Assembly: GCF_011067135.1 (NCBI RefSeq)
Contig: NZ_JAAMOW010000003.1
Location: 310,001-374,000, forward strand
From: Solimonas terrae
GTDB lineage: Bacteria > Pseudomonadota > Gammaproteobacteria > Nevskiales > Nevskiaceae
Direction of reading: 5' to 3'
Length of the DNA: 64,000 nt
The translations under genes were made by a program, and so were the position numbers. Below, one piece after another: positions 12,281 to 63,925 of the stretch (positions are counted from its first letter, which is position 1; every line of letters begins with the position of its first letter). The notes below the pieces were generated by a model. The model did no database searches and was not told where the DNA came from. It was given only the letters and a program-made list of their open reading frames with translations.

Positions 12281-13303
12281 TCAGACCAGGTCCTTCTCGC
12301 GCATGACTTCCTTGAAATACGCGTAGAAGATCGGCGCGGCGATCAGGCCCGGAATGCCGAACGCGGCTTCCATCACCAGCATCGCGATCAGCAGTTCCCA
12401 GGCGGCGGCGCGGATGTTGGCGCCGATGATGCGCGCGTTGAGGAAATACTCCAGCTTGTGGATCACGATCAGATAGCCGAGCGACGCGGCCGCGATCGGC
12501 AGGCCCTTGCTGAAGCTGACGATGATGATCGCGCTGTTGGAAATCAGATTGCCGAGGATCGGCAGCAGGCCGGCGAAGAACGTGATCGCGACCAGGGTCT
12601 TGCTCAGCGGCAGGTGTACTCCGAACAGCGGCAGCACGAGATCGAGATACAGCCAGGTGAACAGGGTATTGATCGCCGATATCCAGGCCTGCGCAAACAC
12701 CACACGCCTGAATGCCGTCGCCAGCCTTGCGGCATAGCCGGTGATCGCGGTCGACAGCGGCCGCTGTTCGGCGCGTGGTGTCGCTTTCTGCAGGGACAGC
12801 AGCGCGCCGATGATCATGCCCATCAGGACATGCACGAACGAGCGTCCGAAGTCGCGACCCGCCAGCTGCAGCGACCCGGCGTGCTGGCGCAGCCACTCGA
12901 CCAGCTTGATGCGCAGCGCATCGGCATCTTCGGGCACGTAGGCCAGCAGGCTTTCCGGAAGATGCGTGCGGGCATCCTCCATGATCTGCGCCATTTTCTG
13001 CATCAGGATCGGCAGGCTGTCGGCACTGTTGCGCAGGAACGCGACCGCGCCGAGACCGGCCGCGGCGAGCGCGGTGATCACCAGGGTCGCGATCAGGGTC
13101 ACGGCCAGCAGACGAGGTCCGTCGCGCCCCAGTGCACTGACCCGCAGCCAGGGCGTCAACACGTCGACCAGCTGAAACACCAGCAGGCCGGCCAGCAGTG
13201 CCGGCAGCAGATGAAGTTCGATGATCAGGATCAGCGCGGCGGCGCTGATGCCCCAGGCGGCGAGGTCGCAGGACGAGACGTGACGGGTCGGGGCGTTGTT
13301 CAT
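12281..13303 (-). CDS. AI-2E family transporter (PerM/YdiK-like permease)
   Basis: A 340-residue multi-pass inner-membrane protein of the AI-2E transporter family, with hydrophobic segments near 15–70, 70–100, 155–180, 205–235, 240–265 and 275–330. Members have been proposed as autoinducer-2 exporters or Na+/H+ antiporters, so the substrate is undetermined. The length is typical (about 340–360). It starts at the ATG complementary to 13301–13303. It is convergent with the MBL hydrolase and lies downstream of the S15-like hydrolase, separated by 220 bp that contain a strong hairpin. Confidence 0.85.
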   Translation of the reverse strand: MNNAPTRHVSSCDLAAWGISAAALILIIELHLLPALLAGLLVFQLVDVLTPWLRVSALGRDGPRLLAVTLIATLVITALAAAGLGAVAFLRNSADSLPILMQKMAQIMEDARTHLPESLLAYVPEDADALRIKLVEWLRQHAGSLQLAGRDFGRSFVHVLMGMIIGALLSLQKATPRAEQRPLSTAITGYAARLATAFRRVVFAQAWISAINTLFTWLYLDLVLPLFGVHLPLSKTLVAITFFAGLLPILGNLISNSAIIIVSFSKGLPIAAASLGYLIVIHKLEYFLNARIIGANIRAAAWELLIAMLVMEAAFGIPGLIAAPIFYAYFKEVMREKDLV

Positions 13304-50438: not shown

Positions 50439-51647
50439 GTGAACCAGGCATTTGATGTCGCGATCGTCGGCGGTGGTCTGGTCGGTGCCAGTCTCGCCGC
50501 CGGCCTGGCGCCGTCAGGGCTGCGCGTTGCCCTGATCGAGGCCGCTGCACCGCCGGCATCGACGCCGGGCTGGGACGAACGCTGCATCGCGATCAATCAC
50601 GCCAGCCGGCAGATTTTCGCTGCGCTTGGTGTCTGGGATGCGCTGGCGCCGGAAGCGGCGACCATCGTCTCGACGCACATTTCCGAGCAGGGCCGTTTCG
50701 GCGTGGCGCGCTTCAGCGCCGCGGAGGCGGGTCTCGAAGCGCTCGGTTACAACCTGCCGCTGCGGGCGATCGGCCAGACCTTGTGGGCGCGCATGCTGGC
50801 GCTCGGCAAGACGCAGCTGCATTGCCCGGCGCGGCTGGAATCGCTGGAGGTCGGCGACGCCGCCGTCGAACTGCAGCTCGCCGACGGCGGCTCGCTGAGC
50901 GCACGACTGCTGATCGCTGCCGACGGCGCCGGCTCGCGGGTTCGCGAGCTGCTGGCGGTTGGCAGCGAGCGACGCGATTACGCGCAGTCCGCGATCGTGA
51001 CCGCCGTGCGCACGCGGCGACCGCATCGCGGTTGCGCTTACGAGCGCTTCACGCCGGACGGCCCGATCGCGCTGTTGCCGAAGGGCCGCGAGCCGAACCG
51101 TTGCTCGCTGGTCTGGACGACGCCGGCCGCCGAGGTCGATGCGCGCATGGCCTGGCGTGACGACGTGTTCATTGCGCATGCCGAAGCGGCGTTCGGCGAG
51201 CGGCTCGGTGAATTCGTCGAACTCGGTCGCCGACAGGCGCATCCGCTTGCCCGTGTGATGAGCGATCAGCTGCGGGCGCCGCGCGTGCTGTTCGTCGGCA
51301 ACGCCGCGCAATCGCTGCATCCGGTCGCGGCACAGGGATTCAATCTGGGTCTGCGCGATGTCGCTGCGGTGATCGAAGTGCTGGGCATGCCCGGCGCCGA
51401 GCTCGATTGCGGTGTCGACGAACTCCTGCAGCGCTACGAAGCCAGTCGTCGCGAGGATCGCGAGCGCGTCGCCGGATTCACCGACCGGATCGTGCGCGTG
51501 TTTTCCAATCGCCTGCCGGGCCTGCGTGGTCTGCGTCACCTCGGGCTGCTCGCGCTGGATCTCGCGCCGCCGCTGAAGCAGGCGGTGATGTGGCAGAACC
51601 TCGGGCTCGGCGGCAGCACGCCGGCGCTGGCGCGAAACGGACGATGA
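50439..51647 (+). CDS. ubiH: 2-octaprenyl-6-methoxyphenol hydroxylase (UbiH-like)
   Basis: A 402-residue FAD monooxygenase of ubiquinone synthesis. FAD motifs are the N-terminal VAIVGGGLVGASLA, DGAGSRVRE and the C-terminal GNAAQSLHPVAAQGFNLGLRD, the last characteristic of UbiH. It starts at GTG 50439. It overlaps the next hydroxylase gene by four bases. Confidence 0.92.
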   Translation: MNQAFDVAIVGGGLVGASLAAGLAPSGLRVALIEAAAPPASTPGWDERCIAINHASRQIFAALGVWDALAPEAATIVSTHISEQGRFGVARFSAAEAGLEALGYNLPLRAIGQTLWARMLALGKTQLHCPARLESLEVGDAAVELQLADGGSLSARLLIAADGAGSRVRELLAVGSERRDYAQSAIVTAVRTRRPHRGCAYERFTPDGPIALLPKGREPNRCSLVWTTPAAEVDARMAWRDDVFIAHAEAAFGERLGEFVELGRRQAHPLARVMSDQLRAPRVLFVGNAAQSLHPVAAQGFNLGLRDVAAVIEVLGMPGAELDCGVDELLQRYEASRREDRERVAGFTDRIVRVFSNRLPGLRGLRHLGLLALDLAPPLKQAVMWQNLGLGGSTPALARNGR

Positions 51648-52819
51648 CGGTCGACTGCGATGTCGCGATCGTCGGCGGCGGCCCGGTGGGGGCGGCGGTC
51701 GCCGTCGGTCTCGCGCAGCGCGGGCTGGCCGTGCAACTGCTCGATCGCGGTCAGGGGCCGACACCGCGCGTGCTGGCCGACGGAGACGACTACGATCTGC
51801 GCGTCTATGCCCTGGCGCCTTCGTGCATCGCGTTTCTCGATCGTCTCGGCGCCTGGTCGCGGATTGCCGCGACGCGCAGCTCGCCGTATCAAGGCATGCG
51901 GGTCTGGGAAAACGATCCGCAGTCGCCGCTGTGTTTCGATGCCCGCGACGTGCGCGCGGCGACGCTGGGGCACATTGTCGAGAGTGGCTTGCTGGCGTCG
52001 GCGCTGTGGGCGCAGCTGCCGGTTTCGGGCTTGCGCACCGGCGTGCAGGTGGTCCGGATCGACGCCGGCGAGCACGACGCGACCTTGCACACCGACGACG
52101 GCGGCAGCCTGCGGACGCGACTGGCGGTGATCGCGGAAGGGCGCGACTCGCGGCTCAGGACGCAGCTCGGCATCGAATCACTGGGCGGGCAATACGAGCA
52201 GACGGCGGTGGTCTGTCACATCCGCAGCGAACAGGCGCACGGCGGCATTGCCTGGCAGCGGTTTCTGCCGACCGGGCCGCTGGCCTTGCTGCCGCTCGCC
52301 GACGGGCGCGCGTCGATCGTCTGGTCTTCCGGCGAGGCGGCGGCGCTGCTCGCGCTCGATGATGCCGATTTCTGTCGGGCGCTCGGCGATGCCAGCCAGC
52401 ATGTCCTCGGGCGCATCACCGCTTGCAGTCGACGCGTGCAGTTCGCGCTCACGCTGCAGCATGCCGATCGCTATGTCGGCAACGGGGTGGCGCTGGTCGG
52501 TGACGCGGCGCATGTCGTTCATCCGCTCGCCGGACAGGGCGTCAACCTGGGCTTTGCCGACGCCGAGGCATTGACCGACGTCGTCGCCGAGGCGCGGGCC
52601 GCGGGCCGCAATTTTGCGTCACTGCGCGTGCTCAAGCGGTATGAGCGCGCGCGTCGCGCCGACGTCATCGACATGCTCGCGGTGACCGACGGGCTGTATC
52701 GCGCGTTTCGCATGCCCTTGCCGGGACTGGCAGCACTGCGCAGTCGCGGCCTGGCTGTCGTCAATGCCGCTGCACCGCTGCGTCGCGAGCTGGTGCGGCG
52801 CGCGATCGGCCTGCGCTGA
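51644..52819 (+). CDS. UbiI/VisC-family ubiquinone-biosynthesis hydroxylase
   Basis: A 391-residue FAD monooxygenase paralogous to UbiH (VAIVGGGPVGAAVA, EGRDSRLR, VGDAAHVVHPLAGQGVNLG). By position after ubiH it corresponds to UbiI (VisC), the C5-hydroxylase, but UbiF or UbiM cannot be excluded by inspection. It starts at ATG 51644 overlapping the ubiH stop. It is convergent with the glycosyltransferase gene, with 3 bp between stops. Confidence 0.88.
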   Translation: MTVDCDVAIVGGGPVGAAVAVGLAQRGLAVQLLDRGQGPTPRVLADGDDYDLRVYALAPSCIAFLDRLGAWSRIAATRSSPYQGMRVWENDPQSPLCFDARDVRAATLGHIVESGLLASALWAQLPVSGLRTGVQVVRIDAGEHDATLHTDDGGSLRTRLAVIAEGRDSRLRTQLGIESLGGQYEQTAVVCHIRSEQAHGGIAWQRFLPTGPLALLPLADGRASIVWSSGEAAALLALDDADFCRALGDASQHVLGRITACSRRVQFALTLQHADRYVGNGVALVGDAAHVVHPLAGQGVNLGFADAEALTDVVAEARAAGRNFASLRVLKRYERARRADVIDMLAVTDGLYRAFRMPLPGLAALRSRGLAVVNAAAPLRRELVRRAIGLR

Positions 52820-52822
52820 ACT

Positions 52823-54001
52823 TCAAAGCTGCCGCAGCAGCTGTTGCGCGGCGCGCGGCATGACCTGCGCGCGGTCGAACATCCGGTAGCGGTTCGCAAA
52901 GGCTTCGGCATTGCGGCGCAGCGCCGGATTGTCGAGCAGCTGCGTCAAGCCCGTACGCAGGTCGGCGGCCTTGCGCGCCACTGGCATGACGCCGGCCCCG
53001 AGCTGCAGGATGCGGCGCGCGATCAGCGCCTTCTCGACATCGGTCGGCAGGAGCATTGCCGGTTTGCCGGCGAGCAGGGTTTCCGAACTGGTGCCGTCCT
53101 GGCCGGCATGGATCGCGATGTCGCACTCCTGCAAGGCCCGGTGCAGATCGATCGCACCGGTCGCGATCGCGAGACCCGGACGCAGGTAGGCGCGCACTGC
53201 GCTCGGCGATACGTCGGCGACGCGCAACAGTGCGGTGATCGGCAGTTCGCGCAGGACTTCCAGCAGGAGCTGCAGCCACGGCCCCGGACGCAGGTAGGCG
53301 AACAGGCGCGATCCCTGGCCGTCCGGCCAGATCGGCGCGTCGCCGTGGGAGTAGTCCGGGTGGCCCAGGCACAGCGTCTCGCGTCCCGGACCATAGGTGT
53401 CGAGTTCGGCAAAGCTGAGGATGCATTGCGGGCAGTCGTCGAACAGCGCCTGCAGACTTGCGAGCGGCGACCACGACAGCCGTGCGAGCGCGTCGTTGAC
53501 GGTCGCCAGTACTCGCGCCTCGTTGCGAATCAGGGCATCGTGATTGACGGGCCGGCTCGGCTGGAACCACGGGAACGGCTGCTGCAGCGGCGGTTGCCCG
53601 AAGCTTGCGCCGAAGGTGCTGCGCGGCAATCGCAACTGGCGGGCCGCCAGCGTCGCCGTTGGCGCGTAATTCAGAGCGACGGCATCGATGCTCAGCGTCT
53701 GGTACAGGGTCTGCCAGGCGCGCAGGCGCGAGGCGAGGGCGGCGCTGTCGTCAAAGCCGGTGTTGTGCAGCAGCGTCGCATAACTGGTTTGCACGGCGAC
53801 TGCGCGACGGGTGCCGGGTGCAAACGGCGCCGGCAGCACCGGGCCGAGTTCATGCAGGCCGAGTACCTGCGCGGAGCCGAGATCGCGTACCGCGAACAGG
53901 CAGTCGTGGCCGGCGTCGCGCAGCACGTGCGCGTAGGCACGCAGCGCGCCGACATGGCCGTAGTTCGCGCCAAGCTCCCAGGCCAGCAGAATGCGGCTCA
54001 T
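52823..54001 (-). CDS. GT-B-fold glycosyltransferase (GT1/UGT-like)
   Basis: A 392-residue cytoplasmic glycosyltransferase. The N-terminal acceptor domain opens with ELGANYGHVGALRAYAHVLR. The C-terminal donor domain carries the UGT-like signature HAGQDGTSSETLLAGKPAML…LGAGV (about 305–350). In the usual signature Asp-Gln follows; here the equivalent is DVEKA. It lies 37 bp downstream of the giant TpsA gene on the same strand, so it may be the last gene of that operon and modify the exoprotein or its carrier. This differs from HMW1C of Haemophilus, which is GT41. The substrate is not known. Confidence 0.8.
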   Translation of the reverse strand: MSRILLAWELGANYGHVGALRAYAHVLRDAGHDCLFAVRDLGSAQVLGLHELGPVLPAPFAPGTRRAVAVQTSYATLLHNTGFDDSAALASRLRAWQTLYQTLSIDAVALNYAPTATLAARQLRLPRSTFGASFGQPPLQQPFPWFQPSRPVNHDALIRNEARVLATVNDALARLSWSPLASLQALFDDCPQCILSFAELDTYGPGRETLCLGHPDYSHGDAPIWPDGQGSRLFAYLRPGPWLQLLLEVLRELPITALLRVADVSPSAVRAYLRPGLAIATGAIDLHRALQECDIAIHAGQDGTSSETLLAGKPAMLLPTDVEKALIARRILQLGAGVMPVARKAADLRTGLTQLLDNPALRRNAEAFANRYRMFDRAQVMPRAAQQLLRQL

Positions 54002-54038
54002 GCCGCCATGCGGTGTCGCGCAAGCGGCGCCATGCGCA

Positions 54039-57000
54039 CTATCGGCATTGCGTATCGCCCGGTGCGTCCTCGATCGTGATCAGGCTGCTGGTGTCGTCCG
54101 GATGCGCCGCCGGGTTGTCATCGAGCGGCGGTGTGTCGCCGAGGCCGCCGGACTGGATCTCGCCGATCAGCGGCAGTTCGAAATCGCTGAGGTTTTCAGT
54201 CGTGACGATGCCGGACAGAACGATCACCTGACCATTGGTCGCGAGATTGCGATGGCCGTTGACGTGCCCGCTGGTCATGAACAGGAAGTTCGTCGACGCG
54301 TTGGCGACATCGACACCCGAGTCGACATTGATGTCGCCGGCATAGTTGCTGCCGCCGAAGGCAAGGCTGGCGTCGTAAGGCGCAAAGGCGGCGGCGTCGC
54401 TGAAGTTCAGCGCCGCCGGCGAGCTCAGTGCGCGGGCCGCGACCGTCGTCGGCTGGCTGAGTTCGATGCCGGTCGTCGCCGCCAGCGGCTGGATCTGTAC
54501 CAGCAGATGCGCAGGTGCCGCGCTGACATGACCGATCGTCAACGCATTGGTCGTCAGCGACAGGTAGTCGCCGCTCATCGCCAGCGTGCCGAGCGCGATG
54601 CTCTGTGCGTGCAGGGAACCGTTCGGGGCCGTCGCCGTCGGCAGCAGCTGCGGCGCCTGCGCGGCGAGCAGTTGCAGCAGGCCGCTGTCGCCAGCGACGC
54701 CGCTGCTGCCGGTACCGATGATCAGGCTGCTGCGTGCGAAGTCGATGGCGGTGCCGGCATTGGCGCGCAGCGCGTCGACATCGATATTGGCAGCCGAACC
54801 ATCATCGAGGATGCCGCCGGCCGCGGTGAGTGTCAGGCGGCCGCTGCGGATGTCGCTGCCGCCCAGCACGATGTCGCCGGCCGACTGCAAGCTCAGATTG
54901 CCGCTGCCGACCGTCGGGCTCTGCGTTGCCGCCAGCGGCTGCACCGTCGATATCGGGCCGAAGCTGCTGTCGATCAGGTTCAGACTGCCGTCGCTGGTGA
55001 TGAAGCTGGCCGACTGGGTGTAGGCAAGCTGACTGTTGCCGATGTCCAGCGATGCGGCTTCCAGCGACGCCGTGCCGCCTTGCCATGTGGCGTTGTCGAT
55101 CTGGGCCGTGCCGCCCGCCGTTGCCGTCAGATTGCCGGCGAGTACGGTGTCGGTCGCGGTCAGGGTGTCGCCGGCCGTCAGGCCGATCTGGCTGGCATCG
55201 ATCGTCAGGTCGTCGAGCGTGATGCCGTGCGTGGCGCCAAGATCGATGCTGGTGCCTGACAGCAGCACGTTGTCGAGCGACAGGCCATTCGCACCGCTGA
55301 CATCGATGTCCAGCGCGTCGACGTAGAGATCGCTGGCGAGATCCAGGCTGGCGCTGGCGACCGTCAGGCTGCTGCCACTGAATGACGGCCCGCCGAGGTG
55401 GACCTTGCCGCTCGCGGCTGTCAACACGCTGCCGTGCGTCAGCGTCGAGTCGCTGCCGGCGTCGATCGTGATGTTGTGCGCCGTGATGTTCGCAAAATCC
55501 GCGCTGCCGGCGGCGTTCAGTGTCACGTTGCCGCTGGCAGTCAGGCTCGCGGCGATGCTGATCTTGCTGCCGCTGTCGAGCTTCGCCGAGGTGACATTGC
55601 TGCCGCTGTTGTGAAGGGCGATGCCGCCGGGTCCGGCCTGCAGGTCGAGCTTGCCGCTCAGCGCGCCGCCGTCGATGGTGATGCTGCTGGCGGACAGCTG
55701 GTCGGCCAGCGCAATGCTGCCGCCGTCGATCGCGATCGCGCCGGTCGCGGTCAAGGGGCCGACGATACCGACCGCGCCGGTGCTGCTCAGACTTGCGCTG
55801 TCGACCGTGCCGCTGCTGTTGTCCAGCGCGATGCCGCCGGCGCCCGCAACGAGATCGAGAATGCCGCTCAGTGCGCCGCCGTCGATCGTTATGCTGCTGC
55901 CGGTGATCTGGTCGGCGAGGGCGATGCTGGCGCCGTTCAGGCTGGTCGCGCCACTGCTGCCGATCTGACCGCCGACGCTCAATGCGTCGGTGGCACTCAG
56001 GCTGACCGATCCGGCCGTGAGATTGCCGACGCTGAGATCGCCGCCGCTCGCGGTCAGCGACAGATCGCCGGCAATGTCGACATCACCGAAGTCCAGGCTC
56101 GTGGCGGTGACGCTGAGATTGCCGGTCGTCAAGGCGCCGGTCGTGATCGCGCCGCTGTCGGCGACCAGCACGATGCTGCCGCTGCTGCCGGCATTCAGAT
56201 CACCGCTGTCGATGCCGTTCGCCGCGTGCAGATCGATGCTCGACGCCTGCGCGCCGCCCAATTCGATGCCGCCGGTATTCGACGTCAGCGACAGACTGCC
56301 GCTCAGCACAATGGGATCGAGCGACAGACTGTTCGCCTGCAAGCTCAGATCGGCGGTACTGATCGTGCCGTTGCGATAGAGATCGCCGTCGTGGGCGAGC
56401 AGTGCCACCGAGCCGTCGCTGCCGGCATCGATATCGTCGACCGAGATGTCGCGACCGGCGTCGATGTGGACATCCTGCGCCGCCATGTTGGCGAAAATGC
56501 TGGTGCTGCCGCTGGCGGTCAGGGCGATGCCGTTGCCGTCGTGCGCGATCACGTTGGTCATGTGGATCGACAGGTCGCCGATGACGTCAAGTGCGTTGAC
56601 ACGGAGATCCCCGCCCTCGGAGCCGATCGACACCGAACCCAGCGTGGTGCCTCCATAGCCGTCGGTGCCGCTGCCACTGTCGATCCTGCCGATGCTGGCG
56701 ATGTCGAGGTCGCCGTCCGAGCCGATGTACACATGGCCGGCGTGGTCGGTGACACTGATCGATTCGATCGTGCCGATGTGAGCGATCGAATCGCTGTCTT
56801 TGTGAAAGCCGAAGTACACGTCGTAGTAGTCGCTGCCGCCGCCGACCGTGATCGCCCCGGTGTCGAGCTGACCGCCGTACAGGTCGATCGCCACCTGCCG
56901 AGCCTGCAGATCGCCGATCTCGATATCGCCGCCGCCGGCCGCGTAGCCGTTGCCGGTGTCGATCTGTGCCGTGCCGGCGCTCAGATAGACGCCGCCCTGG

Positions 57001-60000
57001 TCGGCGGTGACCGTCCCGGTGCTGCCACTGATGATGCCGATGTTGCGGCCGGCCAGAATCTCGACGTCACCGTCGGTGGCGTGCAGGCTGCCGACCAGAA
57101 TGTCGGTGCCCACCGTGCCGCCGTAGGCGAAGTCCCGTCCGAGTTCGATGCCGCCGGCCGTGATGTCGAGCGCGGTGATCGAACTGGCGGGCACGGAGCT
57201 GTATTCGCCGATCACGGCCTCACCGGTCGCCGTCAGCGTGCCGATGTCGATCGCCTGGCCACCGTCGGTATACGCGACCAGATCGCCGTCGATGGCGACC
57301 CCGTCGATGTAGAGCTTGTCGTCACCGACCGTCGGCACGCCGACCGCCAGCGTGCCGAGCTGATTGCCGCCATAGGACTGGTCGCTGTAGCCGAGCAGCA
57401 ATGCCGTGACATCGCCGTGCAGCGTTGAATCGGTGACACTGAGCGAGCCGAGGCTGGAGAAGAATTCGATGCTGCCGCGAGTGCCGTCGACGGGATCGAT
57501 ACCGGCATCGATGTTGAGGCCGCTCACGGCGTAGCCGCTGTCGGCGAAGATCGCCACCGAGCCGGCTCCCCCGGTCACGCGGATCGGACCGGTGGTGCCG
57601 ATCGCGCCGTGCGCCTCGCCGAGATCATGAAGGCCGAAAAAGATGTCGTCGCCGTACGAGTACGAGTTGCCGGCGAACGCGGTGATCGCGCCCGTGTTGA
57701 TCGTGCCGCCGTAGGCGTTGAGATCGACGCTGTCCGCCGACACGTCGCCGATCGTGAGGTTTTCGCCGCTGAGATACGCGACGTCCGTCGCCAGGATCGT
57801 GCTGCTGGCCGGGTCCGTCGCCAGGACGTTGCGCTCGGCGGTGACGTAGATGCTGCCGGCGTCGGCAGTCAGATGGGCAAATGTGATGTCGTGGCTGCCG
57901 ACGGTGAAGGCGCCGCCGTAGTAGCTCGCGCTGTCATTGCTGATGTCGATCCCGTAGCCGGCGTGCACGCTGTCGAGCGTGATGTTGCCGCCGACGGTGG
58001 TGCCGGTCTCCGAGTCGTAGCTTTCGCCCGCATAAATTTCGACGTTTTCGCTGCCCTGGATCAGCGCCGTGCCGTTGTGCAGGGTCGTGATGTCGCCGCC
58101 GGCGTCGATGTACAGGCCACCATCGGTCGCCGTGAGGTTGCCCAGCTGCATGGCTGCCTGCGACGCGCCCTGCGAGGTATCGATGCTGCTGTTGCTCGTG
58201 AGGTAAATGTCGCTCGCCGTGAGATTGTCGGCGCTCAGCGCACCGCCGTCGCTGACGCTGGCATACAGGCCGTTGTCGTTGATGGTGACGCCGCCGAGCG
58301 TAATCCCGGCGCCGTTGCCGGCGTAAAGCGCGGTGTAGCCCTCGATCGTGCTGTCGGTGATGCTCAGCAGGCCCGGCGTGCCGCCGTACGCGACGGACAG
58401 GGATGCCTCGAGGTCGCCGACCAGCGTTGCACCATCGACGGACAGGTCGCCGTCGTCGGCCGACAGCCGGATCGAGCCGTAGTCGATCGATCCGCCATAG
58501 CTCTGCGGGGCGCTGCCGGCGTCGATCGTGATCGCGCCGACCGTCAGATCGTGTCCGGCCCTGAGATCGACCGTGCCGGTACCGCTGCTGATGGTGATGT
58601 CGCCCAGCGCGGCGAGCGCGCCTGTTTCGGCGCTGACCGTGATGTCGCCGCCATTCAATGCATGCGTGGTGACGTCGCCACCGGTGCTGTCGATGTAGAT
58701 CTGGCCGTTGTTGTTTGCCGTGATGGAGCCCAGCGCATGGATCGCGTCGGCGGCTTCGAGGTCGATGCTGTTGCCGATCAGATTGCCAAGGGTCAGCTCG
58801 CCGGCGGTGTAGCCGCCGAGGATCGCCAGATCGCCGTCCACGGCGATCGTGTTGGCCGTGTTGTCGAAGAAAATGCCGCCGCCGCTCACGCCATCGCCGC
58901 GGCTGAAGCCGGTGCCGGTGCCGAACGCGCCGCCGTAGCCCTGGGTGCCGATGCCCAGCGTCAGCGATCCGCCGTAACCGCCGGCTCGACCGTCGAGGAT
59001 GCCGTCGCCGCCGTTCGCCGACAGATCGGCGACATGGATCGCCTGGTCGGCGGCGATGTAGACGCTGGCGCCCTGCGCAAGCAGTCCTTCGAGCGTCTGT
59101 TCGAAGACGGTGGCATCGCTGCCGTTGTCGGTGCTGCCCTGGCCCTGCGCAATCGTCACGGTCGTCGGGTCGATCAGCAGGCTGCCGCCGTTGCCGAGCT
59201 CGAGGTCGCCACGGATGCGCAGATTCCGGTGGCCCGACAGTTCGACGGAGCCGCCCTGAGCGCCGGCGACATCGAGGCGTGCACCGGCGTCGAAGTCGAC
59301 ATCGCCGTCACCGGCCACCGCGACACTGCCACCGTGAGCGGACGCGCTGCCGGCCTGGGTGAGGCTGCCCGCGGCGAGTGCGATGTCGCCGGTGCCGGTG
59401 ATCTGCACCGAACCGCCGTCGCCGCTGCCGTCGCCCGATGCGTCGACCGTACCCGATTGCGCGATGTCGCCGCCGCTGGCACTGAGCACGATCTGGCCAT
59501 CGTGTTCTTCGATCGACTGTGCCGACACCCGGCCCTGGTTGTTGACGACCGTGCCGATCAGTTGGCGCGCGACGTCGGCACTCATGTAGACGCGGCCACC
59601 GTTTGCCGCCAGCGTGCCGAGATTGCGGACGCCGGCGGCGTCGGACAGCGCGGCACCGTCGATGCTGAAATTGACAAGCCCTTCGCTGTCGAGATTGAGC
59701 GTCAGCGCCGAACCGGATGCCAGCGCAATATCGCCAAGCTGCGCCTGGATCAGGCCGCTGTTGCCGACCTGATCGGCAGCGAGCACGACGAAGCCGCCGT
59801 TGCTGGCGGTGATGACACCGGCATTGTCGACCTTGCCGTCGCCGCTGCCGTCGACGAACTGGTAGCGGCCGGCCTGGAAGTCGGCGTTGCTGATGTCCAT
59901 CGTCGTCGCTACCAGCGAGCCGACGTCGATGCGCGAGTTCTGGCCGAACATCACGCCATGCGGATTGATGATGAACACGCGGCCATTCGCGGAGATGCTG

Positions 60001-60308
60001 CCGAGAATGTCGGACGGTGAGCCGCCGACCACGCGATTGAGGATTGCTGCCGAGGCATTCGGCTGATGGAACACCACATACTCGTTGCTGCCGACCGAGA
60101 ACGATTGCCAGTTGACGACGGCGCTCTGGCTGGACTGCGTGATCGTGGTCTGCGTGCCCTCGCTGTTGATGCCGGCTTGACCCGCGACGACAACGCCACC
60201 GCTGGGGTTGGCCAGCGCGAGGCCGGGAAGCAGGCTGCCAACGGCACCGCGTGCGCCGAAACGCAGTGCGGCAGTGATCGGGTGCAGCTTCAGGCGATAC
60301 GGTTTCAT
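54039..60308 (-). CDS. Filamentous-haemagglutinin-type TpsA exoprotein
   Basis: A 2089-residue secreted protein of a two-partner secretion system. Signal peptide about 1–33 (end LALA), then a TPS domain (about 34–270) beginning NPSGGVVVAGQAGI with the family core IINPHGVMFGQNSRIDVGSLVATTMDI (NPHG in place of the usual NPNG). The rest is a long Gly/Asp/Ser/Thr-rich beta-helix with many YGG motifs, internal repeats, and at least 25 N-x-S/T sequons. I found a single Cys in the whole protein, residue 2088, next to the C-terminal Arg. No toxin or VENN motif is visible at the C-terminus. The start at the ATG complementary to 60306–60308 has AGAGG upstream. It lies downstream of TpsB, FecR and SapC-type genes. 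Confidence 0.92.
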   Translation of the reverse strand: MKPYRLKLHPITAALRFGARGAVGSLLPGLALANPSGGVVVAGQAGINSEGTQTTITQSSQSAVVNWQSFSVGSNEYVVFHQPNASAAILNRVVGGSPSDILGSISANGRVFIINPHGVMFGQNSRIDVGSLVATTMDISNADFQAGRYQFVDGSGDGKVDNAGVITASNGGFVVLAADQVGNSGLIQAQLGDIALASGSALTLNLDSEGLVNFSIDGAALSDAAGVRNLGTLAANGGRVYMSADVARQLIGTVVNNQGRVSAQSIEEHDGQIVLSASGGDIAQSGTVDASGDGSGDGGSVQITGTGDIALAAGSLTQAGSASAHGGSVAVAGDGDVDFDAGARLDVAGAQGGSVELSGHRNLRIRGDLELGNGGSLLIDPTTVTIAQGQGSTDNGSDATVFEQTLEGLLAQGASVYIAADQAIHVADLSANGGDGILDGRAGGYGGSLTLGIGTQGYGGAFGTGTGFSRGDGVSGGGIFFDNTANTIAVDGDLAILGGYTAGELTLGNLIGNSIDLEAADAIHALGSITANNNGQIYIDSTGGDVTTHALNGGDITVSAETGALAALGDITISSGTGTVDLRAGHDLTVGAITIDAGSAPQSYGGSIDYGSIRLSADDGDLSVDGATLVGDLEASLSVAYGGTPGLLSITDSTIEGYTALYAGNGAGITLGGVTINDNGLYASVSDGGALSADNLTASDIYLTSNSSIDTSQGASQAAMQLGNLTATDGGLYIDAGGDITTLHNGTALIQGSENVEIYAGESYDSETGTTVGGNITLDSVHAGYGIDISNDSASYYGGAFTVGSHDITFAHLTADAGSIYVTAERNVLATDPASSTILATDVAYLSGENLTIGDVSADSVDLNAYGGTINTGAITAFAGNSYSYGDDIFFGLHDLGEAHGAIGTTGPIRVTGGAGSVAIFADSGYAVSGLNIDAGIDPVDGTRGSIEFFSSLGSLSVTDSTLHGDVTALLLGYSDQSYGGNQLGTLAVGVPTVGDDKLYIDGVAIDGDLVAYTDGGQAIDIGTLTATGEAVIGEYSSVPASSITALDITAGGIELGRDFAYGGTVGTDILVGSLHATDGDVEILAGRNIGIISGSTGTVTADQGGVYLSAGTAQIDTGNGYAAGGGDIEIGDLQARQVAIDLYGGQLDTGAITVGGGSDYYDVYFGFHKDSDSIAHIGTIESISVTDHAGHVYIGSDGDLDIASIGRIDSGSGTDGYGGTTLGSVSIGSEGGDLRVNALDVIGDLSIHMTNVIAHDGNGIALTASGSTSIFANMAAQDVHIDAGRDISVDDIDAGSDGSVALLAHDGDLYRNGTISTADLSLQANSLSLDPIVLSGSLSLTSNTGGIELGGAQASSIDLHAANGIDSGDLNAGSSGSIVLVADSGAITTGALTTGNLSVTATSLDFGDVDIAGDLSLTASGGDLSVGNLTAGSVSLSATDALSVGGQIGSSGATSLNGASIALADQITGSSITIDGGALSGILDLVAGAGGIALDNSSGTVDSASLSSTGAVGIVGPLTATGAIAIDGGSIALADQLSASSITIDGGALSGKLDLQAGPGGIALHNSGSNVTSAKLDSGSKISIAASLTASGNVTLNAAGSADFANITAHNITIDAGSDSTLTHGSVLTAASGKVHLGGPSFSGSSLTVASASLDLASDLYVDALDIDVSGANGLSLDNVLLSGTSIDLGATHGITLDDLTIDASQIGLTAGDTLTATDTVLAGNLTATAGGTAQIDNATWQGGTASLEAASLDIGNSQLAYTQSASFITSDGSLNLIDSSFGPISTVQPLAATQSPTVGSGNLSLQSAGDIVLGGSDIRSGRLTLTAAGGILDDGSAANIDVDALRANAGTAIDFARSSLIIGTGSSGVAGDSGLLQLLAAQAPQLLPTATAPNGSLHAQSIALGTLAMSGDYLSLTTNALTIGHVSAAPAHLLVQIQPLAATTGIELSQPTTVAARALSSPAALNFSDAAAFAPYDASLAFGGSNYAGDINVDSGVDVANASTNFLFMTSGHVNGHRNLATNGQVIVLSGIVTTENLSDFELPLIGEIQSGGLGDTPPLDDNPAAHPDDTSSLITIEDAPGDTQCR
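55621..55945. repeat. Imperfect direct repeat (period 210 bp) inside tpsA
   Basis: Two copies of about 115 bp (from 55621 and from 55831) lie exactly 210 bp apart, coding for matching 38-residue blocks around SITIDGGALSG…LDL…GGIAL. They indicate an internal duplication of 70 residues in the beta-helix. Confidence 0.7.
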
Positions 60309-60319
60309 GTGCGACCTCT

Positions 60320-60529
60320 TCAACGGTTTCGCAGGCGCGCCGGATGGCGTGCTCGGCGAACCGCGCTCAAGACCAGGGGTGTCGGCAGCCGTGGCAGCGC
60401 CGCTTGTTCGTGTTGCTGCGGGATTCGAAGCCGCGGCAACGACAACGCCGCGACCTGCGTGGCGGAACGGAGCCGCGAGACGGGCAACGCCGTCATCCGG
60501 CCGGCGTAGCTTCGGCGTTCAATGTTCAT
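60320..60529 (-). CDS. Possible small Arg-rich protein between sapC and tpsA
   Basis: A 69-residue open frame starting at the ATG complementary to 60527–60529, overlapping the SapC stop by 11 bases, and ending 11 bases before the tpsA start. A GGAG seven bases upstream could serve as ribosome-binding site. It contains many Arg, no hydrophobic helix and no known domain. It fills the only sizable gap between sapC and tpsA, but its composition is also what a GC-rich spurious frame would give. Confidence 0.25.
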   Translation of the reverse strand: MNIERRSYAGRMTALPVSRLRSATQVAALSLPRLRIPQQHEQAALPRLPTPLVLSAVRRARHPARLRNR

Positions 60530-61286
60530 GGCGGGACTCCAGCATCTGCATGCGATCGAGCAGACGGCCGAAATTTTCCAGCGACAGCAGGTGCGCGTAG
60601 AACGCCCGCAGTTCGCCGGTGCCGAGCAGGGTGCGCAGTGCGTCGGCGGCGAGGGTCGCCAGCCGCGCTTCTTCGATGCGGTAGAGGCCCTGCAGCTGCG
60701 TGCGGTCGCCGTGGCGCGGGACCGCCAGCGCGTCGAACGGCACCAGCAAGCCAAGCTCGTGCAGGCGGCGGCCCAGATCCAGCGTCTGCTGCCAGTCCTG
60801 GTCGAACGCTTCGAGCAGCTGCCGGATTGGTTCCCAGGCCGCCGTGGTGCGGCCGTCGCCGTCGATCAGCGCCGGCCTTGCCTCGGCGCTGAGCCGCGTT
60901 TCGTCGACACAGATCAGCCTTCGTGACGCTGCCTCGGCGCCGTTGACGTCGGCCAGCGAGAACGGATGGCGGCGGACATAGGCGGGCACATAGTGCTCAG
61001 GTGCCCACGCCCCCTTGTCATCGACGAACAGGTTTTCGCTGTCGCGCAGGCCCAGCACGGCCATCGGCACGTAACGATCATCGGCGTCCCGCACGTAGAC
61101 GATCGGGTAGTGCAGCGCGGCGCGCAGGAACTCGGATGTCGACAGCGGAACGGCGTTGCGCCTCGCACACCAGCGGTGGCCTTGCGCTGTCGAGAGGCCG
61201 AGCCCGGCGTGGCGCTTTGCGTCAAACGGTACGGCGCGGCTGGCGGCAGCGCTGTGCGGCATGACGATTGGCGGCAGTTTCGACAT
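60519..61286 (-). CDS. SapC-family protein
   Basis: A 255-residue protein of the SapC family, named from the Campylobacter S-layer locus but of unknown biochemical function. Family features are HYPIVYVRDADDRYVPMAVLGLR, ENLFVDDKGAW and YVPAYVRRHPFSL. No signal peptide is visible, so it is probably cytoplasmic. It lies 30 bp after the FecR gene and ahead of tpsA, within the two-partner secretion string. Confidence 0.85.
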   Translation of the reverse strand: MSKLPPIVMPHSAAASRAVPFDAKRHAGLGLSTAQGHRWCARRNAVPLSTSEFLRAALHYPIVYVRDADDRYVPMAVLGLRDSENLFVDDKGAWAPEHYVPAYVRRHPFSLADVNGAEAASRRLICVDETRLSAEARPALIDGDGRTTAAWEPIRQLLEAFDQDWQQTLDLGRRLHELGLLVPFDALAVPRHGDRTQLQGLYRIEEARLATLAADALRTLLGTGELRAFYAHLLSLENFGRLLDRMQMLESRHEH

Positions 61287-61316
61287 TCGAATGACGGTTC
61301 GCTTGCGCTGCCGTGC

Positions 61317-62192
61317 CTATGACACGCACAGGGTCAGCGGATCCGGGAACGGCTGTGCACGCAGGAAGTCCGGTTCGCTCGGCAGGCGGATCTGGCGGCC
61401 ATCGCTGAGCGTCAGCAGGAATTGTCCGGCGGTGAGGATCTCGGTGTGGCCGGCGGCATTGGTGACGGCGATGCTGCCGTGGATCACGCCGTCGAGCGTG
61501 GCGCCGACCGCCAGATCGTGGCCGAGATGTGCGAGATCCAGACTTTCGAGAATGATCGGGTCGTTGGCGCAAGCCAGATCACAGATATAGGCGTAGTAGT
61601 CGGTGCCGCGGATACCGATGGTCGCGACCGGGGTCGTCACAAGATAGTCGTCGGCATTGGTCTTGCCGATCAGGCCCGACACCGTGCGAAAGCCGCCCTT
61701 CAGCAGTCGCAGGAAGGCGCGCTGCAGTGTTCCTTCAGTGCTGCTCGCCGTCGTGACCGGGTGACGGTCGGCTGGCGGTGGTGTCGCTGGCCTGGCCGGC
61801 AGTGCCGGCGTTACGGGCGGCGGCGGCGTCGCAGGCGGTGCGCTGCTCGGCGTGTAGGCGTAGCGATCGATCGAGAATCGCGTATTCGGTCGCAGCAGCA
61901 CGAACGCGCCATCCGAAAATTTCAGATTCATGTAGCTGTTGCTGCCGGCATTGAGAATGTCGCCGGAATACACCGGATCGCCCTTGACCAGCCCGCGAAT
62001 GGCGCCGGTCTGCGGATTGGTGGCAGTGCCGCGGCCGGTCAGCAGGATCACTTCGCCGGCCGGCGTCGCGTGGCTCGACGCCGGCGCGGCGCTGTCCGCC
62101 GCGAATGCCGGCGACATCAGGGTCATGGCGCTCACTGCGAGCAGAACGGACAGCTGGCGCATGGGGGTTCTCGGTAGCGCGTTCATGGGCAT
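61317..62192 (-). CDS. Secreted FecR-domain protein
   Basis: A 291-residue protein with an N-terminal signal peptide (end AFAA at about 32), a FecR domain (about 45–115 and continuing around the linker; GDPVYSGDILNAG, LRPNTRFSIDRY, TPVATIGIRGTDY) and a Pro/Ala-rich linker (about 115–145). It lacks the transmembrane anti-sigma architecture of FecR itself, and no sigma factor is adjacent. One Cys pair (YICDLAC) may form a disulfide. The start could also be six or thirty bases downstream (in-frame Met 3 or Met 11). Periplasmic FecR-domain proteins occur near surface-polymer and secretion genes; here the role is inferred to be sensing or assisting the TPS pair. Confidence 0.82.
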   Translation of the reverse strand: MPMNALPRTPMRQLSVLLAVSAMTLMSPAFAADSAAPASSHATPAGEVILLTGRGTATNPQTGAIRGLVKGDPVYSGDILNAGSNSYMNLKFSDGAFVLLRPNTRFSIDRYAYTPSSAPPATPPPPVTPALPARPATPPPADRHPVTTASSTEGTLQRAFLRLLKGGFRTVSGLIGKTNADDYLVTTPVATIGIRGTDYYAYICDLACANDPIILESLDLAHLGHDLAVGATLDGVIHGSIAVTNAAGHTEILTAGQFLLTLSDGRQIRLPSEPDFLRAQPFPDPLTLCVS

Positions 62193-62296
62193 TGCCTGTA
62201 CTCGTCGTCGCGTGTCGTTGTTACGTCGCAGGTCGCACCGATCTCGGCGGGGCGGGGCAAGAGCAGTGGTTTTGCAAGCGGAGCCATGCGCCGGCC

Positions 62297-63925
62297 CTAG
62301 AACGCAACCGCCAGCGATCCGAACACGCGGCTGCTGTCGCGGTCGTCGCTGACCGTGCGATTGTCGAGCGGGAATGACCAGTCGGCATGAACCGTCACGC
62401 GATTCCAGTTGACGTCGGTGCCGATGCCGGCCGACGTCAGCGACTCCTTGCTGTCGACGCCGGTGGGCGCGTCGATCAGAAACGTGCTGCCGGCCTCGAT
62501 GAACGCGCGCGGCACCCAGTGCAAGCCGGCCCAGTCGACCGGTCGGCGCAGCGTCAGCGAGCCCTGATAGCCGCGATCACCGCGGATTTCGCCGGACGGA
62601 TAGCCGCGGATGCTGTCCGGGCCGCCCAGCGAATAGGCTTCGGTGTCGACCAGCGGGTCCGGTGAATAGACGCCGTTGAAATGAGCGAGCAGCTGCGTCA
62701 GCCCGAACAGCGGCTGCAGATGCTGGACGTCGACTTCCCAGCGCAGCCGTTCGCGACCGTGCGGGACCGACCCGGCCGCCAGATCGTTGCGGTCCTGGGA
62801 TTCGAAATTGCTGTGGATCGTCGTGCTGAGCTGCGTGACGGCGAAATCGGCGTAGCTGTGGGTAAGCAGGGCCCCGATTTCGAGCAGCGAGATCGCGGTG
62901 CGACTGAAGGTCGTTCCGGTGAAATCGGCATTGGCAATCGTCCGCGACACTCCACCGTTGACCGACAGCTGCGTCGCGCCGTGATTCAGCAACGACTGCT
63001 CGAGTTGCAGACGGCCGGCGCGATTGCGGCCATCGATCGTCGAATTGCGGACGTCGAACTCGGCGTCGCCGTACGACATATGCAGGCGCGCGCCGGTGAA
63101 ATTCAAAGGCAGGCTGTACTCGACGTAACCGTAATCGAGCAGGCCGTTCTCGGAGCGCAGGGCCATCAGGCTGAGCTGATCCTCGACATGCAGCGGATCA
63201 TTGAACCGGGCGAGCGCCGAGATGCGGAATTCGCCGATGTCCTTGCGTCCGTAATTGTCGATGTTCAACGAGCCTTCGATCGGCTTTTCGTCGACCTTCA
63301 CGATCAGATCGCTGGTCCCGTAACTCGCGCCCGGTTTGAGCACCGCGCGGGCCTTGAGGCCGGGCAGGGTGTTCAGCGTGCGCAGACTGTCCTGGACCCT
63401 GTCGCCACGGTAGACGCTGCCCGGCGCTGCCGCGGGAAAATAGCGCCGCACTTCGTCGGCGCTGTACAGCTTGTTGTTTTCGACCGCGATGCGCGCGATC
63501 CGGCCTTCGCTGACCAGCAGCCGAACAACCCCGTCGCTGATGGTCTGTGGCGGGATGGTGACCGATGCCAGCGTGTAGCCGCGGCTGGCGTAGAAATCGG
63601 CGACACGGTCGGCGGCTTCATACAAGTCGAACAGGGTGACCGGCCTGTGCGTATAGCTGGCAGTGATCGCGCCGAGCTCGGCCTCCGAGAACAGGGTGTT
63701 GCCGGTGAACTCGAACTGGCTGACGGTGACCGTCTTGCCGCCCGGAGCGACCCGGCTGTCGGCGGGGCTGCCGTGCTCGATGGAAGGGGCGGACGGTGCG
63801 GCAGGCACCGGTTCCGGCCGCTTCAGGCTGTCGCCGACCTGCCCGGGTGTCGACTGCCCCGCGGCAATGCCGGATACCAGCACGCCAGAGAGAACCAGCA
63901 CTGCGCTCGCCGCTCTTTTCTGCAT
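62297..63925 (-). CDS. TpsB outer-membrane translocator (ShlB/FhaC/HecB family)
   Basis: A 542-residue Omp85-superfamily transporter secreting the TpsA partner. A signal peptide (about 1–23) is followed by a Pro-rich linker, two POTRA domains (about 68–145 and 145–220; FEFTGNTLFSEAELGAI), and a 16-stranded barrel (about 225–542) with the conserved loop-6 motif SIRGYPSGE and a terminal Phe in VFGSLAVAF. The start fits the signal peptide. The upstream promoter lies beyond the window except for 75 bp of leader containing a short hairpin. Confidence 0.93.
   Translation of the reverse strand: MQKRAASAVLVLSGVLVSGIAAGQSTPGQVGDSLKRPEPVPAAPSAPSIEHGSPADSRVAPGGKTVTVSQFEFTGNTLFSEAELGAITASYTHRPVTLFDLYEAADRVADFYASRGYTLASVTIPPQTISDGVVRLLVSEGRIARIAVENNKLYSADEVRRYFPAAAPGSVYRGDRVQDSLRTLNTLPGLKARAVLKPGASYGTSDLIVKVDEKPIEGSLNIDNYGRKDIGEFRISALARFNDPLHVEDQLSLMALRSENGLLDYGYVEYSLPLNFTGARLHMSYGDAEFDVRNSTIDGRNRAGRLQLEQSLLNHGATQLSVNGGVSRTIANADFTGTTFSRTAISLLEIGALLTHSYADFAVTQLSTTIHSNFESQDRNDLAAGSVPHGRERLRWEVDVQHLQPLFGLTQLLAHFNGVYSPDPLVDTEAYSLGGPDSIRGYPSGEIRGDRGYQGSLTLRRPVDWAGLHWVPRAFIEAGSTFLIDAPTGVDSKESLTSAGIGTDVNWNRVTVHADWSFPLDNRTVSDDRDSSRVFGSLAVAF

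Follow-up and report, generated by a model that had tools for sequence, protein, structure and literature searches.

A two-partner secretion variant in Solimonas terrae with a candidate split cysteine anchor and an optional modification set

In most accounts, two-partner secretion (TPS, type Vb) involves two genes, and its adhesins either anchor themselves or are released. The cysteine hook of the HMW adhesins and of CdrA is made of two cysteines near the C-terminus of TpsA, and in CdrA it lies within CdrA itself. Two reviews describe TpsA anchors in which a periplasmic C-terminal part is closed by a disulfide (PMC5422565, PMC8151025); two further papers place the CdrA cysteine hook in the barrel (PMC7616799) and have a periplasmic domain retain giant LapA-type RTX adhesins in an outer-membrane channel (PMC6890996). 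Here we analyze a five-gene locus of Solimonas terrae, contained in a 64,000-nucleotide stretch of DNA that we call the window, which encodes the transporter TpsB, a FecR-domain protein, a SapC-family protein, the secreted TpsA, and a glycosyltransferase (GT), and which we regard as a TPS variant with a candidate split cysteine anchor and an optional modification set.

The three-gene TPS systems HMW1 and HMW2 of Haemophilus influenzae share with this locus a TpsB, a large TpsA, and a co-encoded cytoplasmic glycosyltransferase, and their C-terminus is kept in the periplasm by a disulfide (PMC5422565), as we propose here; however, the GT of the window is not of family GT41, the lone cysteine of its TpsA precludes an intramolecular disulfide, and FecR and SapC genes are present in addition. 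CdrA/CdrB of Pseudomonas aeruginosa is similar in that a cysteine-based device keeps the C-terminus of a TPS adhesin in the pore region (PMC7616799), whereas here the second cysteine would come from a separate FecR-domain protein. LapA-type adhesins offer the idea of periplasmic retention, and the FecR partner has a weak profile similarity to their retention module, but they use type I secretion with the module in cis, while here it would act in trans and be disulfide-linked. No PF06035 (LapG-type) protease was found in the host genome by profile, and LapG-type release was rejected on that ground. A search confined to open-licence literature yielded no account of a TpsA-FecR pairing.

Paired terminal cysteines in TpsA and the FecR-domain protein

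TpsA of the window has 2,089 residues (54039..60308, minus strand, starting at the ATG at 60308) and a single cysteine, residue 2088 (codon 54045..54047, minus strand). Its N-terminal TPS domain (PF05860, 134 bits), together with the POTRA domain (POTRA_2, 67 bits) and ShlB barrel (80 bits) that Pfam recognizes in TpsB (542 residues, no cysteine; 62297..63925, minus strand), identifies the pair as two-partner secretion (type Vb). The whole genome holds one ShlB-type TpsB match and one TPS-domain protein.

The position of this cysteine recurs in relatives. Among complete and distinct TpsAs with a linked FecR gene, defined as one on the same strand within 3 kb, all 30 have a lone cysteine in the last seven residues, the rest of the last 30 being free of cysteine, as against 4 of 39 TpsAs without such a gene (L097, L099, L148, and L167); among the other unlinked proteins, five (from L101, L107, L108, L145, and L161) carry two cysteines within 30 residues of the end, two carry just one, farther from the end, and 28 have none. 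The two cysteines of an HMW/CdrA-type hook were thus found neither in the window TpsA, with its single cysteine, nor in the rest of the 30 linked proteins, each with one in the last 30 residues. Ten more loci in which only the TpsA C-terminus was captured all show the terminal pattern (in one, L064, the adhesin-like frame was chosen from two overlapping ones), as does the TpsA of L119/L152, outside the main count, which ends in ..LQCR. A TpsA frame of 8,570 residues in genome G036 ends, by position, in L109 with ..LQCT, and that cysteine is the only one in the 4,219 TpsA residues read there. The chance expectation for a cysteine in the last seven residues is 1.4% per protein. The tails are acidic and dissimilar, with a median identity of 10% over the 30 residues before the cysteine and more than 40% in only 1.6% of pairs; that one residue stays while the surrounding sequence diverges is the main argument for function.

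The FecR-domain protein (291 residues; 61317..62192, minus strand) matches PF04773 at 30.9 bits against a cut-off of 24; all 24 aligned family members match this model at E up to 0.1. It has three cysteines: Cys204 and Cys208, which form a CxxxC stretch (61569..61583, minus strand), and Cys289, two residues from the end (codon 61326..61328, minus strand). A cysteine within the last six residues is present in 40 of 40 FecR proteins linked to TPS (with TpsA no more than 6 kb away, TpsB no more than 12 kb, or SapC no more than 2.5 kb) and in 4 of 15 unlinked ones. The pair of terminal cysteines is kept in six loci without SapC, the GT, or a putative sulfotransferase (ST) of relatives described below (L094, L095, L096, L103, L119/L152, and L170), and it belongs therefore to FecR and not to these enzymes; in L124, where the contig ends inside the FecR gene, the TpsA half of the pair is visible. 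The FecR protein of L103 has lost CxxxC yet keeps its terminal cysteine, as does its TpsA, which suggests that the two terminal cysteines pair with each other and that CxxxC forms a disulfide of its own. FecR partners of L055, L057, and L059 (Nevskiaceae, Stagnimonas) have an extra six-cysteine stretch.

Certain rows were dropped from these counts: TpsA frames open at the 3′ end, repeats identical in the last 120 residues (100 for FecR), and sequences that our profiles missed (at thresholds of E 1e-10 for TpsA and 1e-20 for FecR) and that were also absent from the fetched PF05860 hits. The class-wide stretches (20 + 20 + 20) were hand-picked, not random, some for a close FecR hit, and TpsA frames below about 4,000 residues were favored.

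We consider it moderately likely that an intermolecular disulfide fastens TpsA to a FecR-domain protein that acts as a stopper in the periplasm, with the HMW1/CdrA-type cysteine hook split between two proteins. Since it has only one cysteine, TpsA cannot form an intramolecular hook loop. TpsA would cross the inner membrane by Sec and then, N-terminus first, the outer membrane through TpsB, with its disordered acidic C-terminal tail remaining in the periplasm; Cys2088 would there bond to Cys289 of the FecR protein, whose folded domain would be unable to go through the TpsB pore and would hold TpsA in the manner of a knotted rope. Before export, cytoplasmic SapC, GT, and, in relatives, the sulfotransferase-like protein would probably decorate TpsA.

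We read the FecR partner as a periplasmic stopper because of its N-terminus, which by eye resembles a signal peptide, its weak likeness to the LapA retention-module model NF033682, which 20 of the 24 aligned partners (several of them N-terminally trimmed) match at E up to 0.01, and the additional SPOR domain in the partner of Fontimonas thermophila (L028/L051). SPOR domains bind peptidoglycan. If this reading is true, a separate third anchor would account for the FecR-domain genes found behind TpsA in this group, and the uninformative annotation 'FecR' becomes a prediction for many genomes. To a wider proposal we give slightly less than an even chance: that the locus represents a new way of anchoring adhesins, by a disulfide-locked FecR stopper acting in trans, which may descend from the LapA retention module or have converged on it and is SPOR-fused in one lineage, with periplasmic redox controlling release, and that SapC, the sulfotransferase, and the EryCIII-type GT form a third cytoplasmic route of adhesin modification beside HMW1C-like N-glycosyltransferases and heptosyltransferases, sulfation being a mark not seen before.

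Stable core and accessory genes

TpsB, TpsA, and FecR form a stable core, and SapC, ST, and GT are accessories, optional and not defining. Among 41 distinct FecR loci (duplicates removed by a hand-written list), SapC is present in 33, GT in 20, and ST, a protein of 362 residues, in 16; these numbers are lower bounds, many loci being cut by contig ends. Three genomes of the same genus (G003, G007, and G008; L094 to L096) have TpsB-TpsA-FecR only, and genome searches found no SapC or GT match in them. ST always occurs with SapC (19 loci in all, three without FecR), and GT without SapC in one locus, L088. Gene sets of this kind also occur elsewhere in the class, in different families (L115, L127, L129, L133, L149, and L151). 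The commonest order in relatives is TpsB-TpsA-FecR-SapC-(ST)-GT, from which the window deviates in placing TpsA between SapC and GT.

A sequence-only reading of the window had taken this combination, unusual against classical TPS loci, for a new adhesin-system variant, and that it is a conserved set unlike those loci is supported: FecR, SapC, and GT recur with TpsA and TpsB in many genomes and do not form a chance neighborhood. Whether these genes are absent beside TpsA homologues has a mixed answer, since 39 of the sampled TpsAs have no linked FecR gene, and within the FecR loci the SapC and GT frequencies are 33/41 and 20/41. In the Solimonas relatives L035, L038, and L058 there are second loci of SapC-ST-giant TpsA, with no TpsB or FecR within the stretch, which perhaps use the main locus in trans. 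Two TPS-domain open frames are extremely long, with 29,206 (G112:C1:290030) and 18,106 residues (G165:C1:301724).

The SapC-family protein (255 residues; 60519..61286, minus strand) matches PF07277 at 183 bits against a cut-off of 28.9, has an AlphaFold2 model of pLDDT 88, and shows no evident signal peptide by eye. In Campylobacter fetus, SapC is encoded with S-layer secretion of type I; there as here the family accompanies secretion of a large surface protein, by type I secretion in that case and two-partner secretion in this one. Type I secretion genes accompany SapC in L046, L047, L049, and L050 (as identified with Pfam) and in L048 (by likeness to L047), and giant ORFs are present in L047 to L050; in L045 it adjoins a long TPS-like frame. 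L047 and L048 have the same order, in which SapC belongs to a cluster for type I secretion (OEP, HlyD, M50-HlyD fusion) that follows a giant ORF of ~2,500 residues; this ORF has cadherin/Ig-like repeats in L047 (part of it scanned) and is so described by likeness in L048.

The GT (392 residues; 52823..54001, minus strand) has an EryCIII-like C-terminal domain, PF06722 (42.2 bits, cut-off 31.7), as its sole Pfam match at E up to 1, with no match to GT41 (HMW1C-like), which agrees with the sequence-only reading that the enzyme is not GT41; against the NCBIfam MGT subfamily model it scores 25 bits where 260 are needed. SsfS6, a forosamyltransferase, and CalG enzymes are among the PDB entries that match it best in sequence. 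Relatives of the GT adjoin ORFs of about 2,900 to 3,100 residues in three genomes (L089 to L091, two of the ORFs being cut by the stretch); a scan of the one in L090 identified a trimeric autotransporter of the YadA type, which the other two resemble. A link between the EryCIII-type GT family and giant adhesins is supported, and the accessory set ties SapC and this GT type to giant surface proteins that are secreted by several different routes.

ST is a putative sulfotransferase on the strength of two motif-like segments, GIPRxGGSYL and RHPxxxxxS, compared by eye with sulfotransferase motifs; four members scanned gave no Pfam hit, and there was no PDB sequence hit. It is absent from the host genome and present in 7 of 61 searched genomes, one with a weak match.

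TpsA contains exactly 25 N-x-S/T sites, in line with the earlier count of at least 25, but the N-glycosylation drawn from that count does not follow: shuffled copies average 17.5 (sd 3.7) and reach 25 or more in 72 of 2,000 cases, and over 20 TpsA rows (two being pieces of one protein and several cut at the 3′ end) the sequon z value runs from −1.3 to 2.5, with 1.8 for the window. Because the shuffled copies come so close and relatives are not generally enriched, the count is mostly composition, and sequon enrichment was rejected as evidence of N-glycosylation.

Context makes it a reasonable guess that TpsA is the substrate of SapC, GT, and, in relatives, ST. They might instead modify something else, such as a polysaccharide or other surface proteins, and merely be co-located with TpsA. 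In 19 loci SapC is indeed accompanied by none of the other five genes; 12 of these lie beyond the loci named above, and 11 of the 12 are betaproteobacterial by title. The accessory genes are, moreover, optional; against this, GT relatives adjoin a trimeric autotransporter, SapC stands beside type I secretion genes in L046 to L050 with giant ORFs in L047 to L050, and SapC-ST-TpsA loci exist without FecR. On balance we judge mere co-location possible and somewhat unlikely.

The proposed split anchor weighed against alternatives

Several observations weigh against the split anchor. In most members the real partner of the TpsA cysteine could be CxxxC in the FecR protein. Behind TpsA in L170 (L170:10264-12530, genome G285) lie two consecutive FecR-like ORFs, the first alone with a terminal cysteine; the second (E 7e-17, weaker than the 1e-20 threshold and for that reason excluded from the 40 linked proteins) has CxxxC and no terminal cysteine. 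The window protein scores 24.4 bits with NF033682, below the curated cut-off of 50. Terminal cysteines also occur in FecR proteins with no TpsA found nearby, singly in L114, L130, and L131 and doubly in the unlinked L123, and in TpsAs without a FecR gene in the stretch (L148 and L167) or with a FecR-TPS locus only elsewhere in the genome (L097 and L099). Finally, the linked TpsAs mostly cluster on the tree of TPS domains (58 of 68 domains), and its supported branches leave one independent contrast only.

The association of linkage with the terminal cysteine has a Fisher p of 1.5e-15 with related rows counted as independent, and this overstates their independence because linked TpsAs share ancestry on the tree. 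The best tree, from which L029 was left out and which lacks ten unlinked TPS domains missed by the profile, requires six changes of the FecR-linkage label and three of the terminal cysteine. L103 and L170, FecR-linked and with the terminal cysteine, are placed among unlinked TpsAs, although the branches concerned are weak or long.

The terminal cysteines could be independent of each other, each being modified (S-glycosylated, for example) or paired with a different protein or with a second copy of itself. Each tail is a short linear motif close to a cysteine, some terminal-cysteine FecR proteins have no TpsA nearby, and a few lone-cysteine TpsAs have no FecR gene nearby, all of which would suit such independence. 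Persistence of the pair in the six loci lacking SapC, ST, and GT shows that these enzymes are not its cause, though, and a co-clustered folded protein with an unpaired terminal cysteine is the simplest partner, so that we hold independent cysteines to be improbable.

Anti-sigma regulators of the FecR kind have a cytoplasmic sigma-binding part, one transmembrane helix, and a sigma-factor gene. The 291-residue protein of the window begins with a signal-peptide-like segment, and FecR is its one domain; the Pfam scan recognized no second domain and no sigma-binding domain in it, and there is no sigma-factor gene among the five genes. It is very unlikely to be a sensor or an anti-sigma regulator of the TPS operon in the manner of VreR of Pseudomonas aeruginosa, as the Pfam name FecR invites one to think and as the sequence-only reading, which made it a sensing factor, had supposed: its terminal cysteine matches that of TpsA and in the family follows TPS linkage (40/40 against 4/15), it has a weak likeness to the LapA retention module, and one relative carries a SPOR domain. 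A cell-surface signaling system that controls a TPS pair has been published, and in that account (PMC2729926) the VreI/VreR system likewise links a FecR-kind sigma-factor regulator to the pair; that signaling regulator comes with a sigma factor and a receptor, unlike the secreted-looking protein here, which has neither. Also very unlikely is an ordinary HMW1-like glycoprotein adhesin whose GT N-glycosylates N-x-S/T sites, despite the 25 sequons, the GT gene in the operon, and the HMW1C precedent (PMC5422565 and PMC8151025), given an EryCIII-like and not a GT41 enzyme, sequons near shuffled expectation and without general enrichment in relatives, no two-cysteine hook, and a GT in just 20 of 41 FecR loci.

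Sequence searches gave no convincing solved relative of FecR, SapC, or ST; a FecR hit to the 'Antifreeze protein' chain 5ix9 (E 0.17) was too weak and went unused, and a plasmid search for the FecR partner returned one weak match only. The host genome has a second FecR-domain protein (L114:9468-10397; G000:C15:139678-140394), with a lone near-terminal cysteine and a DUF1302 protein close by; there is no TpsA within the L114 stretch.

Genomic setting of the cassette

All five reading frames of the locus are open, lie on the minus strand, and have coding-type GC3 (0.79 to 0.86); the genes, places, and strand of the sequence-only reading are borne out by these frames and by the Pfam matches, and its gaps of 104, 30, about 210, and 37 bp are exactly 104, 30, 210, and 37 bp. 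Promoter and terminator scans of the locus found signals no commoner than in shuffles.

The host genome groups with Fontimonas, Sinimarinibacterium, Solimonas, and Nevskia. Flanking genes were compared by tblastn over 57 loci, duplicates among them, and a flank matched in 33 (duplicates included). Twelve distinct loci with both flanks captured, the window's own included, have the cassette between gcvT and a ubiH/ubiF pair (L002, L028, L030, L031, L034, L036, L039, L040/L066, L053, L088, L094, and L095). In the window, this pair corresponds to two UbiH/UbiF-like monooxygenase genes (50439..52819, plus strand), which are outside the system and mark the orthologous site in relatives. SapC is the sole remaining cassette gene at this site in L043, and in L041, L042, and L044, of the same family, the gcvT-ubiH/F flank was not seen where the downstream side of the cassette was covered. 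The locus therefore looks like an old, mostly vertically inherited one with changing gene content.

Just outside the window and upstream of gcvT are two glycine-riboswitch aptamers (RF00504, 39.5 and 66.7 bits) at L002:12324-12414 and 12524-12614 on the plus strand, 200 bp apart, which are apparently the result of a partial duplication.

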